Part shown: positions 20,105 through 34,751 of the stretch, piece by piece
Position numbering within the stretch: the stretch's first letter is position 1
Layout of the letters: each line of letters opens with the position of its first letter
Origin: Myxococcota bacterium
GTDB lineage: Bacteria; Myxococcota_A; Polyangia; HGW-17
Assembly (NCBI GenBank): GCA_018821305.1
Contig: JAHJMN010000023.1
Location: 1-57,723, forward strand
Length of the DNA: 57,723 nt
Direction of reading: 5' to 3'
The notes under the pieces: model-generated
Told to the model about the DNA's origin: nothing
Databases searched by the model: none
Seen by the model: the letters and a program-made list of their open reading frames with translations, nothing else
Translations under genes and position numbers: made by a program

Positions 20105-20259
20105 TTTCCAAGAATAGCATGTTCCTGCTGCAAATTGCTTCACGAAAGAATTTCACTGACTTTAAGAATGAAAACATTGAAATTTTTAAAGTGTTCTGAA
20201 CAGCATGTTTAGGAAAACATGCTCAATTTTGAAAAAATTGAATTTCCGGACAGTAACTA
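20105..20259. repeat. Dispersed repeat R1, copy 3 (degenerate at one end)
   Basis: Read on the minus strand, the element begins TAGTTACTGTCCGGAAATTC at 20259 and continues through the AAATTGAGCATG hairpin segment to about 20105, where the distal end is worn. The opening TAG is also the stop codon of the crystallin gene. It includes TTCGTGAAGC words typical of the short subtype, so it looks mosaic. Confidence 0.6.
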
Positions 20260-20880
20260 TTTAGGGGAGATTATGATGGAGGAAAGTTTATCGTTGAAAC
20301 CGTATTTTACAAGGCAAGGAACTGATTTGTAAATTGTAATAGCGCGGCCACGGAAGTTCGGGCGGGCATAAAGGGTTGCTTTGTAACCTGGAGCAAGCCA
20401 AACACCGGAAATGTCGTTATTTACAACACCTTTGCGGCGTAACTGATCAATATTATAGGCTTTTGCTTTGAGTTTAACCATATAACCTCTCCATCCACAA
20501 TGCTGATATACTGCGGCAGTATGTTTCGGGCGCGGTGGAGGTGGAGGCGGTGGGGGAGCTGTTACGATAAGTGATGAAACTTTATCGTTGAAGCCGTATT
20601 TTACAAGGCAGGGAACGTTGCCTTTAATAACAAGACTGCGACCACGGAAACCGGGTCTGCTGTATACAGTCACTGTCCAACCGGGAGTTACGGCAACACC
20701 GGAAAGATCGTTGTTGCGAATACCTCTGGCTCTGAGATGGGCTAAGTCATAAGAACCTGCACCAAGGGTAACTCGATACCCACGATATCCGCAATGCTGA
20801 TAAACCGTGGCACTTGCACTGGCCAGTGACGGTATAATCATTGCGGCCAGTGTAGCGGTTAACAGAAATAATTTTTTCAT
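20257..20880 (-). CDS. Secreted two-domain beta/gamma-crystallin-like protein
   Basis: A 207-residue protein with an AGGAGTGG site before the ATG and a signal peptide (MKKLFLLTATLAAMIIPSLASA). Two domains of about 84 residues, joined by a proline run (PPPPPPPP), are each made of two Greek-key motifs and are clearly internal duplicates: YQHCGYRGYRVTLGAGSYDL and YQHCGWRGYMVKLKAKAYNI. The calcium-binding motif (N/D)(N/D)xx(S/T)S occurs once in canonical form per domain (FNDKVSS and FNDKLSS), with a near-canonical NNDLSG or NNDISG partner, so Ca2+ binding is likely. Microbial members are often Ca-binding or extracellular-matrix proteins. The TAG stop is provided by the end of the R1 repeat. Confidence 0.85.
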   Translation of the reverse strand: MKKLFLLTATLAAMIIPSLASASATVYQHCGYRGYRVTLGAGSYDLAHLRARGIRNNDLSGVAVTPGWTVTVYSRPGFRGRSLVIKGNVPCLVKYGFNDKVSSLIVTAPPPPPPPPRPKHTAAVYQHCGWRGYMVKLKAKAYNIDQLRRKGVVNNDISGVWLAPGYKATLYARPNFRGRAITIYKSVPCLVKYGFNDKLSSIIISPK

Positions 20881-21102: not shown

Positions 21103-22617
21103 TTATTCGTGTACACATGGAGGACATGTTGCAACAACGTGATCCTTTGTAGGATCCGTAGCATGGCAGTAACGGCAGGAGAAGTCACCACAGTCAACAA
21201 AGCCATTTCCGTCGTTATCAAGACCGTCTGCGCAGGTTACAGCAGTACCTTCGCAAACCGTAACATTGGGATTAAAACGGCAGGAATTATCCTGACAATC
21301 CATAAAGCCGTTTCCGTCGTTATCAATACCATCGGAGCAGGTTGCATCCGTTACTTCGCGGCCTTCCTGACAGTCTACTGAGTTATAGAGACATGCGAAG
21401 TCAGCACAGTCAGTAAAGCCGTTTCCGTCGTTATCAACGCCGTCAGCGCAGTCAGTTTCGATGCAGGCTGGATCATCTTTGCAGTCGTTGTCGTTACAGT
21501 CGATGTATGTGTCGCCATCGTCATCAAGGCCATCGGTGCAGTTTTGTTCAAATTCTCCAGCACAAGCTGTATCATTGGCACAATCCCAGTCTTCGCAATC
21601 AGTATAGCCGTCACCATCGTTGTCAGCTCCATCATCACAACTGGATTCTTTACAAAGAGTAACATCCGGGTGATTGGAGCATGAAGGATCAGCACAGTCG
21701 ATCATACCGTCTTCGTCATCGTCTGTGGAGTTAGAACAAAGGTCATTGGTGTTTTCAGCTTTTGGAGGACATGCGGGATCGCCGATACAGGCAAAGTCTT
21801 CACAATCGGTAAAGCCATTACCATCGTTATCCTGTTCGTCATCGCAGATTTCGTCAGCAACCACGGGGCAGGCATTGTCATCAGCACTTACTTCGATATC
21901 TGCAGCTGTTCTGGGGAGAATGTAGTATCCGTAGAAATAAGTTACGATACCGGTTACTTTAGAAAGGCATGCACCTTCGGCAACGGTGGAGAGATCCATT
22001 AGGTCATCCTGAAGTTTTGTTCCCTGATAGAGGTTTACTTCGAGGCGGCCATTTCTATCCTGTTTGGTAGTAACGCGAACGTTTTGAAGAGTTACTAAAA
22101 CACCTTCATAAGGTTCGGCGTCAGCAACAGTATTTAAATCTGTGATATCGATCTCAACTGGAGCCGGAACGCTTGTGGTGCCCTGAATAGTTACTGTTGG
22201 GCTTTCAATTTCTGTAACGCCATCTTCAAATTCATTGTTATAGTTGTATTCAACTTTAAGACCTGTGATATCTACGAGATCGCCAACTTTAATGTTAGTG
22301 AACCAGGGAGCTACGAGATCCATGTTGTAGACCATTACTCCGCTGTAAGGGCCACCATTAGGTTCTGCAACCCATATGTTTCCCTGAAAGGATCCGGATT
22401 TATCAACAGCTGTTACTACAACACCTTTAAAATCAACAGCATCACCTTCCTGAATAAAACCGGGATTTGCAGGATTTTGAGCGGCATAAATGGTGTCGTC
22501 ATTGGGATTGTTTATGTTGTTTGTGTTGTTGTTGTTTTCGGAATCGTCATCATCACGGCAACCGGTGAATGCAACGAAAAGCATAGACATGATAAATAAA
22601 AGACGTGTAATTTTCAT
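21103..22617 (-). CDS. Lipoprotein with OB-fold-like domain and seven Cys/Asp repeats
   Basis: A 504-residue protein with AAGGAG before the ATG and a lipoprotein leader ending FVAFTGC, followed by a long Asp/Asn linker. Residues about 50-250 (VDFKGVVVTAVDKSGSFQ, DLVDITGLKVEYNY, YEGVLVTLQNVRV) follow an OB-fold-type pattern seen in secreted nuclease-associated and lipoprotein domains. Residues 255-504 hold seven repeats of the form C-x-DG-x-DNDG(N/D)G-x-x-DC-x-D-x-x-C, each about 30 residues, a calcium-binding style widespread in Myxococcota surface proteins. The product should be an outer-membrane-anchored, extended Ca-binding protein. No sorting signal is seen at the end. Confidence 0.75.
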   Translation of the reverse strand: MKITRLLFIMSMLFVAFTGCRDDDDSENNNNTNNINNPNDDTIYAAQNPANPGFIQEGDAVDFKGVVVTAVDKSGSFQGNIWVAEPNGGPYSGVMVYNMDLVAPWFTNIKVGDLVDITGLKVEYNYNNEFEDGVTEIESPTVTIQGTTSVPAPVEIDITDLNTVADAEPYEGVLVTLQNVRVTTKQDRNGRLEVNLYQGTKLQDDLMDLSTVAEGACLSKVTGIVTYFYGYYILPRTAADIEVSADDNACPVVADEICDDEQDNDGNGFTDCEDFACIGDPACPPKAENTNDLCSNSTDDDEDGMIDCADPSCSNHPDVTLCKESSCDDGADNDGDGYTDCEDWDCANDTACAGEFEQNCTDGLDDDGDTYIDCNDNDCKDDPACIETDCADGVDNDGNGFTDCADFACLYNSVDCQEGREVTDATCSDGIDNDGNGFMDCQDNSCRFNPNVTVCEGTAVTCADGLDNDGNGFVDCGDFSCRYCHATDPTKDHVVATCPPCVHE

Positions 22618-26717: not shown

Positions 26718-28052
26718 TTAAGCTGGGCTACGACCGCGGATTCTCGGACCTGTACCCCTGCCACCACTTCCGCCGCCAAAGCCTTCATAGTGACGCGTAA
26801 TCAGATGTCCTTCGATCTGCTGAACAGTATCAAGGGCAACGCCGACGACGATGAGGAGGGATGTTCCACCGAAATAGAACGGGACGTTGAATCTAGCGCT
26901 CATAAGGTTTGGAAGTACGCAAACCAGAGAAACATAAATTGCACCACCCCAGGTGATTCTGGTAAGAACGCGGTCAATGTACTCTGCTGTACGCTGTCCC
27001 GGTCTGATTCCAGGAATGAATCCACCTTGTTTCTTCATATTGTCTGCAACATCCTTAGGATTGAATGTTACTGCCGTATAGAAGAAGGCAAAGAAGACGA
27101 TCATTGCTACATAAATAAGGTTGTAGCGCCAATCCGTTGGGTTGGAAAGTGGCTGAATAAATCGGCGAAGTGTCTCATTGTCTGTAAATGAGGCAATCTG
27201 AGCCGGGAACATGAGTAAGGAAGATGCGAAAATCGGAGGAATAACGCCAGCCATATTCACCTTCAAAGGAAGATGACTGGATGCGCCTCCGTACATGCGC
27301 CGCCCAACAACACGTTTGGCATATTGTACTGGTATCTTTCTATAAGCCCTTTCAAAGAAAGTAATTACAGCAATTGCACCTATTGCAATAGCAACAATTA
27401 TGGCAAGATTGAGAATACCAATGTCACCGCGGCTGAACTGACGATAGAGTTTTATTACTGCGTCAGGCAGATTGGCTACGATACCGGCGAAAATGATAAG
27501 GGAAATTCCGTTACCAATACCGCGTTCAGTAATCTGTTCACCAAGCCACATGATAAATACTGTACCAGCGGTGAGAGTAAGAACGGTCATAAGACGGAAA
27601 CCAAGACCGGCGCCAAGTACAAGCCCTGGATATGCGCGGTTTTGACTTTCAAACCAGGTTGCCATGAAGTAACCCTGAACGATGCAGAGAAAAACAGTTC
27701 CGTAACGGGTATACTGGTTTATTTTGCGTCGTCCTGCTTCGCCTTCTTTGTTCAGTTGTTCCAGGTGAGGAACTACAACCGTCAAGAGTTGAATAATAAT
27801 TGATGCACTGATGTAAGGCATAATGCCTAGTGCAAAAATTGATAACTGGGAAAGAGCACCGCCGGAAAACATGTTGAAAAGGCCAAGGAATGTACCACTG
27901 GCTCCTGACATGATCTGTTTCATAATGTTACGATCCACACCGGGGACCGTTACAAAAACACCGACTCTGTAAACTGCAAGTAAGAATAGAGTTAACAGTA
28001 ATCTCTTTCTAAGTTCTGGAATTTTTGGAATATTTGCAAATCCGCTTGCCAT
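26718..28052 (-). CDS. secY: Preprotein translocase subunit SecY
   Basis: A 444-residue membrane protein with ten expected transmembrane segments and the classical stretches [35 protein letters not shown] and [23 protein letters not shown]. The C-terminal tail is Gly/Arg-rich. It forms the SecYEG channel; SecE is encoded at the other end of the locus (51951). About 74 non-coding bases separate it from rplO. Confidence 0.97.
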
Positions 28053-28126: not shown

Positions 28127-29062
28127 CTAGTCAATGAGGGTAATTTTACCACCAAAAGACTCAAGCTTTCTTCTGGCTATGGCGGATGCTTTGTGAACCT
28201 GTACACTGTAGGGAGCTTTTACTCTGCCGTCACCGGAAAGTTTTACTTTCTGGCTTGCGTTTAAAATGCCCATTTTTGTGAGAGCAGCAACAGTAACCTC
28301 GCCGCCTTTCGGGAACCATTTTTCAAGATCCCGGAAGTCAACTATGCGGTAATTATTAACCGGATCAATAACTGTAACTTTTCCGTCCTTCATTTCAAGT
28401 GCTTTACGAGCTTCTCTCGAAATTTTATGAACTGAAATGTTATATTTACCGTTAAGCTTGCCTACGGCGACAACAGCAACTTTTGTTTTACCTTCAGGAA
28501 CAAGTCCTGCGGATTTCATTGCATCAAATGTCACGTCGACAGCGGAATCTCCCTTTTTGGGGAATTTCCTGGTAATCTGACCAAGGGTAACGGTAGCATA
28601 TTCATTGGTAGATGAAACAAGATTTACGCTGCCGCCCTTTTCTTCGATTATTTTCCATGCTGCTTCGGTAACTTTATCGGCGGTAATTTCGTATTTACCG
28701 GAGATTTCTTTCGTACCGAGTACTTTGAGCATGGTTGCATCATTTCCTGCATAACCGTTTTCACGAAGAACTTCAAGATTTACTTTCCCGCCTTCGGGCA
28801 TAATTCTTGTGAGTTCTTCAAGGGTCAGGAGACAATATTCCTTACGGAAATTATTGTTAAATCCACGTTTGGGTACACGTCTCTGAAGTGGCATCTGACC
28901 GCCTTCGAAACCAGGGCGAATCTTTCCGCCTGTTCTCTGCTTCTGACCTTTGCAACCCTTACCGGATGTTGAACCCTGTCCACTTGCGCGTCCACGACCA
29001 AGGCGTTTACGATTTTTTACAGAGCCTTCGTTTGGTTTTAAATTTGAAAGTATACTCATCAT
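28127..29062 (-). CDS. rplO: 50S ribosomal protein L15 (uL15) with tripled C-terminal domain
   Basis: A 311-residue protein, about twice the usual 145. Residues 1-73 are the standard uL15 N-terminus (LGRGRASGQGSTSGKGCKGQ, GFEGGQMPLQRR). Residues 74-150 are a first C-terminal L18e/L15P-type domain. Two more copies follow at about 153-232 and 237-311; all three share a motif of the form V-x-L-x-x-[IL]-x-[RK]-x-[FM]P, then G(K)Y-x-[IV]-x-x-[HD]K-x-[ST]-x-x-A, then GG(K)-[VI]. The last copy looks closest to ordinary uL15 (VHKASAIARRKLESFGGKI). No frameshift or stop interrupts it. GGAG precedes the ATG, which follows the rpmD stop directly. Confidence 0.93.
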   Translation of the reverse strand: MMSILSNLKPNEGSVKNRKRLGRGRASGQGSTSGKGCKGQKQRTGGKIRPGFEGGQMPLQRRVPKRGFNNNFRKEYCLLTLEELTRIMPEGGKVNLEVLRENGYAGNDATMLKVLGTKEISGKYEITADKVTEAAWKIIEEKGGSVNLVSSTNEYATVTLGQITRKFPKKGDSAVDVTFDAMKSAGLVPEGKTKVAVVAVGKLNGKYNISVHKISREARKALEMKDGKVTVIDPVNNYRIVDFRDLEKWFPKGGEVTVAALTKMGILNASQKVKLSGDGRVKAPYSVQVHKASAIARRKLESFGGKITLID

Positions 29063-29260
29063 TTACTCCATTTCTGTCTCACAGGGCTCGATTTCAACAA
29101 GGTGAGAAACCTTACGGATCATGCCTCTGATTTCCGGAGTATCTTTGAGAATACTGACTTTACCTGTCTTACGCAGTCCCAGACCGATAAGAATTTTTTC
29201 AAACTTTTCAGCTCTGGCAATGGTACTCTTTACCTGCTTTATTTTAATGTAGGTAGCCAT
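29063..29260 (-). CDS. rpmD: 50S ribosomal protein L30 (uL30)
   Basis: A 65-residue protein with IKIKQVKSTIARAEKFEKIL and GLGLRKTGKVSIL, then DTPEIRGMIRKVSHLVE. It is in its usual place between rpsE and rplO, with no gap to rplO. Confidence 0.95.
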   Translation of the reverse strand: MATYIKIKQVKSTIARAEKFEKILIGLGLRKTGKVSILKDTPEIRGMIRKVSHLVEIEPCETEME

Positions 29261-32003: not shown

Positions 32004-32378
32004 TCAGGCTTTTCCGCTTTCGATTATATCACCGCTGGATTTTTTACCGCGGGCTATTCTAACTTTTCTGCCATCAGGAAGAACTTTTGTTCCAATTCTA
32101 GTACCGCGTACGAGCGTTTTTTCATCTTTTCCGCCGGCAGCTGCTGCTGTTGCAGGATCTACGGGCTGAACATTTGAAATATGAATTGGAGCTTCAGTTT
32201 TTGTCTGAGTTCCCTTCTGGTTTTCACCAGTGGCTTTCTTGTTTTTAACTACTATATTAACGCCCTCAACTATAACTTGTTCTTTCTTTGTAAGAACTCT
32301 GAGGACTTTTCCGGTTTTTCCTTTGTACTTACCGGTAATAACTTTTACTAGATCGCCTTTTTTAATTCTCGCGAGCAT
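32004..32378 (-). CDS. rplX: 50S ribosomal protein L24 (uL24)
   Basis: A 124-residue protein with the KOW motif ([20 protein letters not shown]) and [28 protein letters not shown]. An Ala/Gly/Lys-rich stretch of about 15 residues ([13 protein letters not shown]) separates the two halves, making it longer than the usual 102-105. It overlaps the stop of rplN by one base. Confidence 0.95.
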
Positions 32379-34361: not shown

Positions 34362-34751
34362 TTAAACTTCACCAACTGTTACAGTTATGTGACTTGTTCT
34401 TTTGTTAATTCTGAATGCTCTACCTCTAGCTCTGGGTCTCCGCCATTTCATGATGGGACCTTCATTTACGAAAATGCTTTTAATACAGAGTCTTTCTGAA
34501 TCGTCAAGACCTTGATTTTCAGCATTGTAAACAGCACTCATAACGAGTTTCTGAAGAATTTTAGCTCCGTATTTCGGCGTAAAAGTCAGAAGAGCCATAG
34601 CTTCATCGATTTTCTTACCGCGGATCATATCGGCGAGCATCCTCATTTTTCTGGGAGCAACCCGGAGATTTCTGAGGATCGCGCGAGGATTTTCCTTACG
34701 CTCTGCTTCATATCTTAGTTTCTTAGTTGCGTTCTTCGTATAAAGCGACAT
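34362..34751 (-). CDS. rplV: 50S ribosomal protein L22 (uL22)
   Basis: A 129-residue protein with LRVAPRKMRMLADMIRGKKID and MKWRRPRARGRAFRINKRTSHITV, the loop that lines the exit tunnel. Confidence 0.96.
   Translation of the reverse strand: MSLYTKNATKKLRYEAERKENPRAILRNLRVAPRKMRMLADMIRGKKIDEAMALLTFTPKYGAKILQKLVMSAVYNAENQGLDDSERLCIKSIFVNEGPIMKWRRPRARGRAFRINKRTSHITVTVGEV

Follow-up and report, generated by a model that had tools for sequence, protein, structure and literature searches.

Ribosomal protein uL15 is a core component of the ribosome that, to our knowledge, hardly varies elsewhere. The stretch of DNA analyzed here (the window; 57,723 nucleotides of contig JAHJMN010000023.1 from a Myxococcota bacterium) encodes a uL15 whose single reading frame had been predicted to hold a normal N-terminus followed by three tandem domains of the L18e/L15P type. 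The locus raises the questions of whether these are genuine L15-type domains, where the extra copies came from, and what they might contribute to the ribosome.

The uL15 Gene and Its Context

The uL15 gene lies between uL30 and secY, the canonical spc-operon position shared with other bacterial uL15 genes, in the gene order uL30-uL15-secY (PMC10931766). The open reading frame occupies 28127–29062 of the minus strand and counts 311 codons from the first ATG at 29062, which adds one Met; the second ATG (29059), giving 310 aa, is the likelier start because a GGAG motif lies six bases upstream of it and only that Met is common to relatives (Table 1). Reading of the sequence by eye revealed no internal in-frame ATG at either domain boundary, which argues against internal starts yielding separate domains. 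In a search of the genome, the long form was its sole uL15.

Table 1. Features of the uL15 locus; positions are those of the window.
Feature	Position	Strand	Basis
uL30, directly upstream of uL15	29063..29260	-	ORF; gene end holds GGAG able to serve uL15
uL15 (rplO), long form, 310 aa plus stop	28127..29059	-	ORF; TIGR01071, 203.6 bits; start by GGAG spacing and relatives
N-terminal tail, residues 1-71, net charge +15	28847..29059	-	Alignments; canonical GRG...FEGGQMP.QRR.PKRGF
Domain 1 (D1), residues 72-150, L18e/L15P domain in ancestral position	28610..28846	-	PF00828; AF2 fold
Domain 2 (D2), residues 151-231, extra L15-type domain, net charge +7	28367..28609	-	PF00828; VIA-align; charge
Domain 3 (D3), residues 232-310, extra L15-type domain, net charge +6	28130..28366	-	PF00828; VIA-align
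secY, directly downstream of uL15	26718..28052	-	ORF; gene order

Three L15-Type Domains in One Chain

The long uL15 scored 203.6 bits against the bacterial uL15 model TIGR01071 (cut-off 77.95), with residues 5–146 matching positions 2–143 of 144, such that the N-terminal tail and D1 together align over the full 144-aa model; residues 5–147 are 46–48% identical to the uL15 of the solved Staphylococcus and Listeria ribosomes. When the domains were isolated, each exceeded the curated cut-off of PF00828 (E values of 1.7e-11 for D1, 9.3e-11 for D2, and 1.2e-14 for D3) and each matched the C-terminal half of TIGR01071 (1.8e-8, 1.2e-7, and 8.9e-9, respectively). With an HMM trained on single-domain relatives alone, all three domains of each of the nine long forms were detected (E ≤ 2e-9). 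Identity between domains of one protein is 23–39%, with alignment scores 6 to 16 standard deviations above those of shuffled sequences. Conservation is highest in the tail (mean pairwise identity 71%), whose motif GRG...FEGGQMPLxRRxPKRGF shows little or no variation across long and single forms; among the three domains D3, which bears the clade signature LxxWFPxGG, is the most conserved (53%).

The domain-by-domain HMM scan that had been proposed as a check thus bears out the original prediction: residues 153–311 do score as L15 domains behind a normal uL15 N-terminus, the predicted domain limits (about 74–150, 153–232, and 237–311) agree within a few residues with those in Table 1, and the extra copies are free of internal stops and frameshifts. 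The claimed doubling in length also holds, ordinary bacterial uL15 having about 145–190 residues vs 310 here. Because three PF00828 stretches are present, rather than the one C-terminal L18e/L15P domain that marks uL15, the protein is classed by its sequence as a variant architecture of uL15.

The predicted fold is consistent with this classification. AF2 run on a 26-sequence alignment (pLDDT 81) gave the three domains the same succession of strands and helices, with the relative placement of the domains insecure (pTM 0.54); a model made from the single sequence reached a pLDDT of 36.5 and was hence unusable. In VIA-align, the C-terminal domains of solved uL15 proteins fit each predicted domain with Z values of about 12 to 14, among them up to 13.9 for D1, 13.1 for D2 (5o60 uL15), and 11.9 for D3 (Thermus uL15), and the predicted domains also align to the C-terminal domain of Haloarcula uL15 (4v9f, Z 10.6). 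D1, D2, and D3 are therefore predicted to share the fold of uL15 C-terminal domains, bacterial and Haloarcula alike.

Distribution in Myxococcota

The long form was present in all 8 sampled genomes of the family to which the window belongs and in one genome of a sister family (G009), while the other 4 genomes of the order carry a single-domain uL15. Absence from related genomes had been named beforehand as a sign of an assembly artefact, and since every genome concerned is a metagenome assembly, an artefact of assembly or gene calling might be suspected. This explanation, to which we give next to no weight, is refuted by the nine separate assemblies from different submitters, whose long forms are 47–67% identical to the window protein, contain no stops, and show the same architecture throughout. 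Named records with the long form likewise derive from metagenome-assembled Deltaproteobacteria or Myxococcota of different projects; the pattern used to scan genome contigs was specific to D3 and so reports this clade only, not any unrelated multi-domain uL15 proteins of other phyla. One scan of viral contigs gave no relative.

Whole-domain gains had been expected to be rare, and so they proved in Myxococcota, the phylum surveyed. A PF00828 scan gave a match in 330 of 379 genomes, and more than one domain per uL15 was counted only in the long-form clade (three) and in f30, a family of another class (two). In a further genome (G382) two PF00828 matches lie on two contigs, with one domain each. 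A less sensitive first scan (A2) had missed the second domain in one f30 genome, and the domain counts are accordingly those of the PF00828 scan. The literature searched, which took in few subscription papers, did not describe any uL15 with a repeated domain, and within that scope the three-domain protein would be a previously unreported variant of uL15.

Origin of the Additional Domains

In a tree of 18 concatenated cluster genes the long-form genomes are monophyletic (100/100) and exclude f2 and f4, the families with the single form. A domain tree with broader sampling, resting on 85 columns, places D1, D2, and D3 in one clade (99/94), within which D2 (96/82) and D3 (98/91) are sister clades (91/92); in an earlier tree with fewer outgroups, D1 grouped with the single forms, and D2 and D3 were placed as in the later one. 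From the grouping of all three domains it follows that the copies arose within the lineage, and this phylogeny puts the copying inside Myxococcota, before the split of the window's family and its sister family. Horizontal gain of the extra domains is unsupported, as D1, D2, and D3 form one clade. The tree is read most simply as a doubling of the ancestral domain followed by a doubling of the added copy.

The uL15 of f30 (G066, L070:1258-1953:-; G061, L075) resembles the long form in having an extra C-terminal L15-type domain, but it carries one such domain instead of two, belongs to a different class, and has a very diverged second domain. That domain groups with the first domain of f30 itself (99/88), and the two clades are separated by many single-domain lineages; for these reasons the f30 duplication is probably a second, independent event. 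A common origin of the f30 and long-form copies was not rejected by the AU test (p 0.23), owing to the long f30 branches.

Selection and Divergence of the Domains

Comparison of three close relatives gave dN/dS values of 0.02–0.13 in each of the three domains, showing at the level of coding sequence that all three are retained under purifying selection. The domains have nonetheless changed in different directions. In the window's family, D1 has replaced the Ser before the last helix with Thr (8/8), lost the Lys in the last helix (8/8), and lost a loop Gly in most members (5/8), although each of these residues is present in all 29 single forms compared; D2 has retained the Gly and the Ser (8/8 each), and D3 the Gly (8/8), the Lys (8/8), and in part the Ser (5/8). 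Net charge averages +2.8 (s.d. 1.5) in single forms vs −0.5 in D1, +7.8 in D2, and +7.5 in D3 of this family. The surface role of the old domain thus appears to have passed in part from D1 to D2 and D3, and from the residue and charge patterns we infer that rRNA contacts may have been transferred along with it.

An alternative would have D3 (or D2) filling the ancestral site in the 50S subunit, with D1 turned into a linker or peripheral domain. The loss from D1 of residues invariant in single-domain uL15 would fit, as would the invariant Lys and Gly, best PF00828 score, and highest conservation of D3. On the other hand, D1 directly follows the tail, which is threaded into the subunit (PMC4881015), leaving little room there for another domain; it keeps the front-face Lys or Arg at alignment column 48 and G51 (8/8 each), both of which D2 lacks in 8/8; and in the sister-family genome G009 it is clearly the most ancestral-like domain (98.8 bits vs 43.9 and 60.4 for the other two). 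We regard such an exchange of sites as unlikely.

The same data bear on the view that the duplications were fixed by chance and that D2 and D3 persist only for folding or solubility of the chain. No compensatory loss was found, and the 12-residue uL24 insert and longer uL22 N-terminus of the clade (see below) could reflect general ribosome drift. D2 and D3 are ancient, however, and have been lost in none of nine genomes, dN/dS is low in every domain, and the shift in charge and invariant residues is directional and family-wide, all of which make neutral elaboration decidedly improbable.

Possible Roles in the Large Subunit

The reading we favor, with moderate confidence, is that the C-terminal domain was tripled by two tandem duplications inside the gene, in an ancestor shared by the window's family and its sister family, and that D1 occupies the usual site while D2 and D3 are extra rRNA-binding modules of the 50S subunit. 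The N-terminal tail and D1 would then sit where uL15 is normally found, and the basic D2 and D3 would lie on neighboring rRNA at the solvent side, where they may serve to stabilize the subunit. Their charge fits rRNA as a partner, but it would equally fit other acidic partners. Bacterial uL15 contacts uL4, bL35, and bL21 (PMC4881015); genomes with the long form contain both bL35 and bL21, and the gain is therefore not a replacement of either, which disposes of compensation for a lost neighbor. A search for 23S rRNA in the assemblies of the order's 13 genomes, using the Rfam model and a PTC pattern, found none.

D2 and D3 might alternatively have been adopted for something other than packing against rRNA, such as docking of a protein factor (in assembly, hibernation, or contact with the translocon or membrane) or an extra-ribosomal function. 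Strong conservation of each domain combined with their mutual divergence is what specific surfaces would be expected to show, and secY adjoins the gene, though this is the ordinary operon order; the charge of D2 and D3 is nevertheless typical of RNA binding, and we think a role of this kind improbable.

The favored model of added rRNA-binding modules invites comparison with eL18, a separate archaeal and eukaryotic paralog whose CATH fold, 3.100.10, is that of uL15 (PMC11354259); contacts of eL13 and eL18 on uL15 have been reported (PMC7804294). In both cases the large subunit would contain the uL15 C-terminal fold a second time, as judged here from sequence and predicted structure, and a single chain would combine, by analogy, what archaea and eukaryotes hold as uL15 plus eL18. 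Unlike eL18, which has its own gene, D2 and D3 are fused to uL15 and arose within Myxococcota. The L18e equivalog model NF003079 touches only D1, at 15.1 bits on its own (cut-off 85), and L18e models gave no match to D2 or D3 even at E ≤ 10. By sequence, D2 and D3 are not eL18, and because they match L15 rather than L18e models, the relationship is one of analogy only. More tentatively, the added domains may bind rRNA or proteins at sites left uncovered in other bacterial ribosomes and take over part of the contacts of D1, which would amount to an independent, eL18-like expansion. If this is true, then together with the probable second case in f30 it would mark the uL15 C-terminal domain as a recurrent site of ribosome growth by domain duplication.

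Long uL15 proteins are also found in organelles, where chloroplast uL15c and mitochondrial uL15m (240–320 aa) carry C-terminal additions, but in a search of PDB sequences each of these chains had one matched stretch and no repeated L15 domain. With respect to ordinary bacterial uL15, the window protein differs in its two further complete C-terminal domains and, in the window's family, in its altered D1. The case offers a defined bacterial clade in which uL15 has gained two whole domains, with single-domain sisters for comparison, and hence a dated and testable example of a ribosome gaining protein mass by in-gene duplication; a division of an old role between duplicated domains would possibly parallel the way in which eL18 arose. 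The case also calls for caution: phylogenies built from ribosomal proteins, like HMM pipelines, may place the wrong copy of the domain in an alignment.

Other Ribosomal Proteins and Neighboring Genes

Among 25 cluster genes scanned, inserts of at least 5 residues confined to the clade were found in just two, uL15 and uL24, which argues against a general growth of ribosomal proteins in the clade. The insertion in uL24 (window 32004–32378, minus strand) is of 12 residues, occurs in all long-uL15 genomes, and is absent from the single-form relatives compared. By eye, the N-terminus of uL22 (window 34362–34751, minus strand) is longer in the long-uL15 clade than in f2 and f4, by ~20 residues. An apparent long, low-complexity N-terminal extension rich in Lys, Ala, Pro, and Glu was seen in uL5 of f2 (L052, L053; G008, G011), and bL21 of G009 (C46:8104-8419) is split across two overlapping frames, likely through an assembly error.

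Two further genes on the minus strand of the window encode repetitive proteins. The product of 20257–20880 looks secreted and consists of two similar halves (YQHCGYRGY... and YQHCGWRGY...) resembling crystallin-type repeats, while that of 21103–22617 has an N-terminal domain followed by about seven tandem acidic Cys/Asp repeats of the DGxDNDGxGxxDCxD type.
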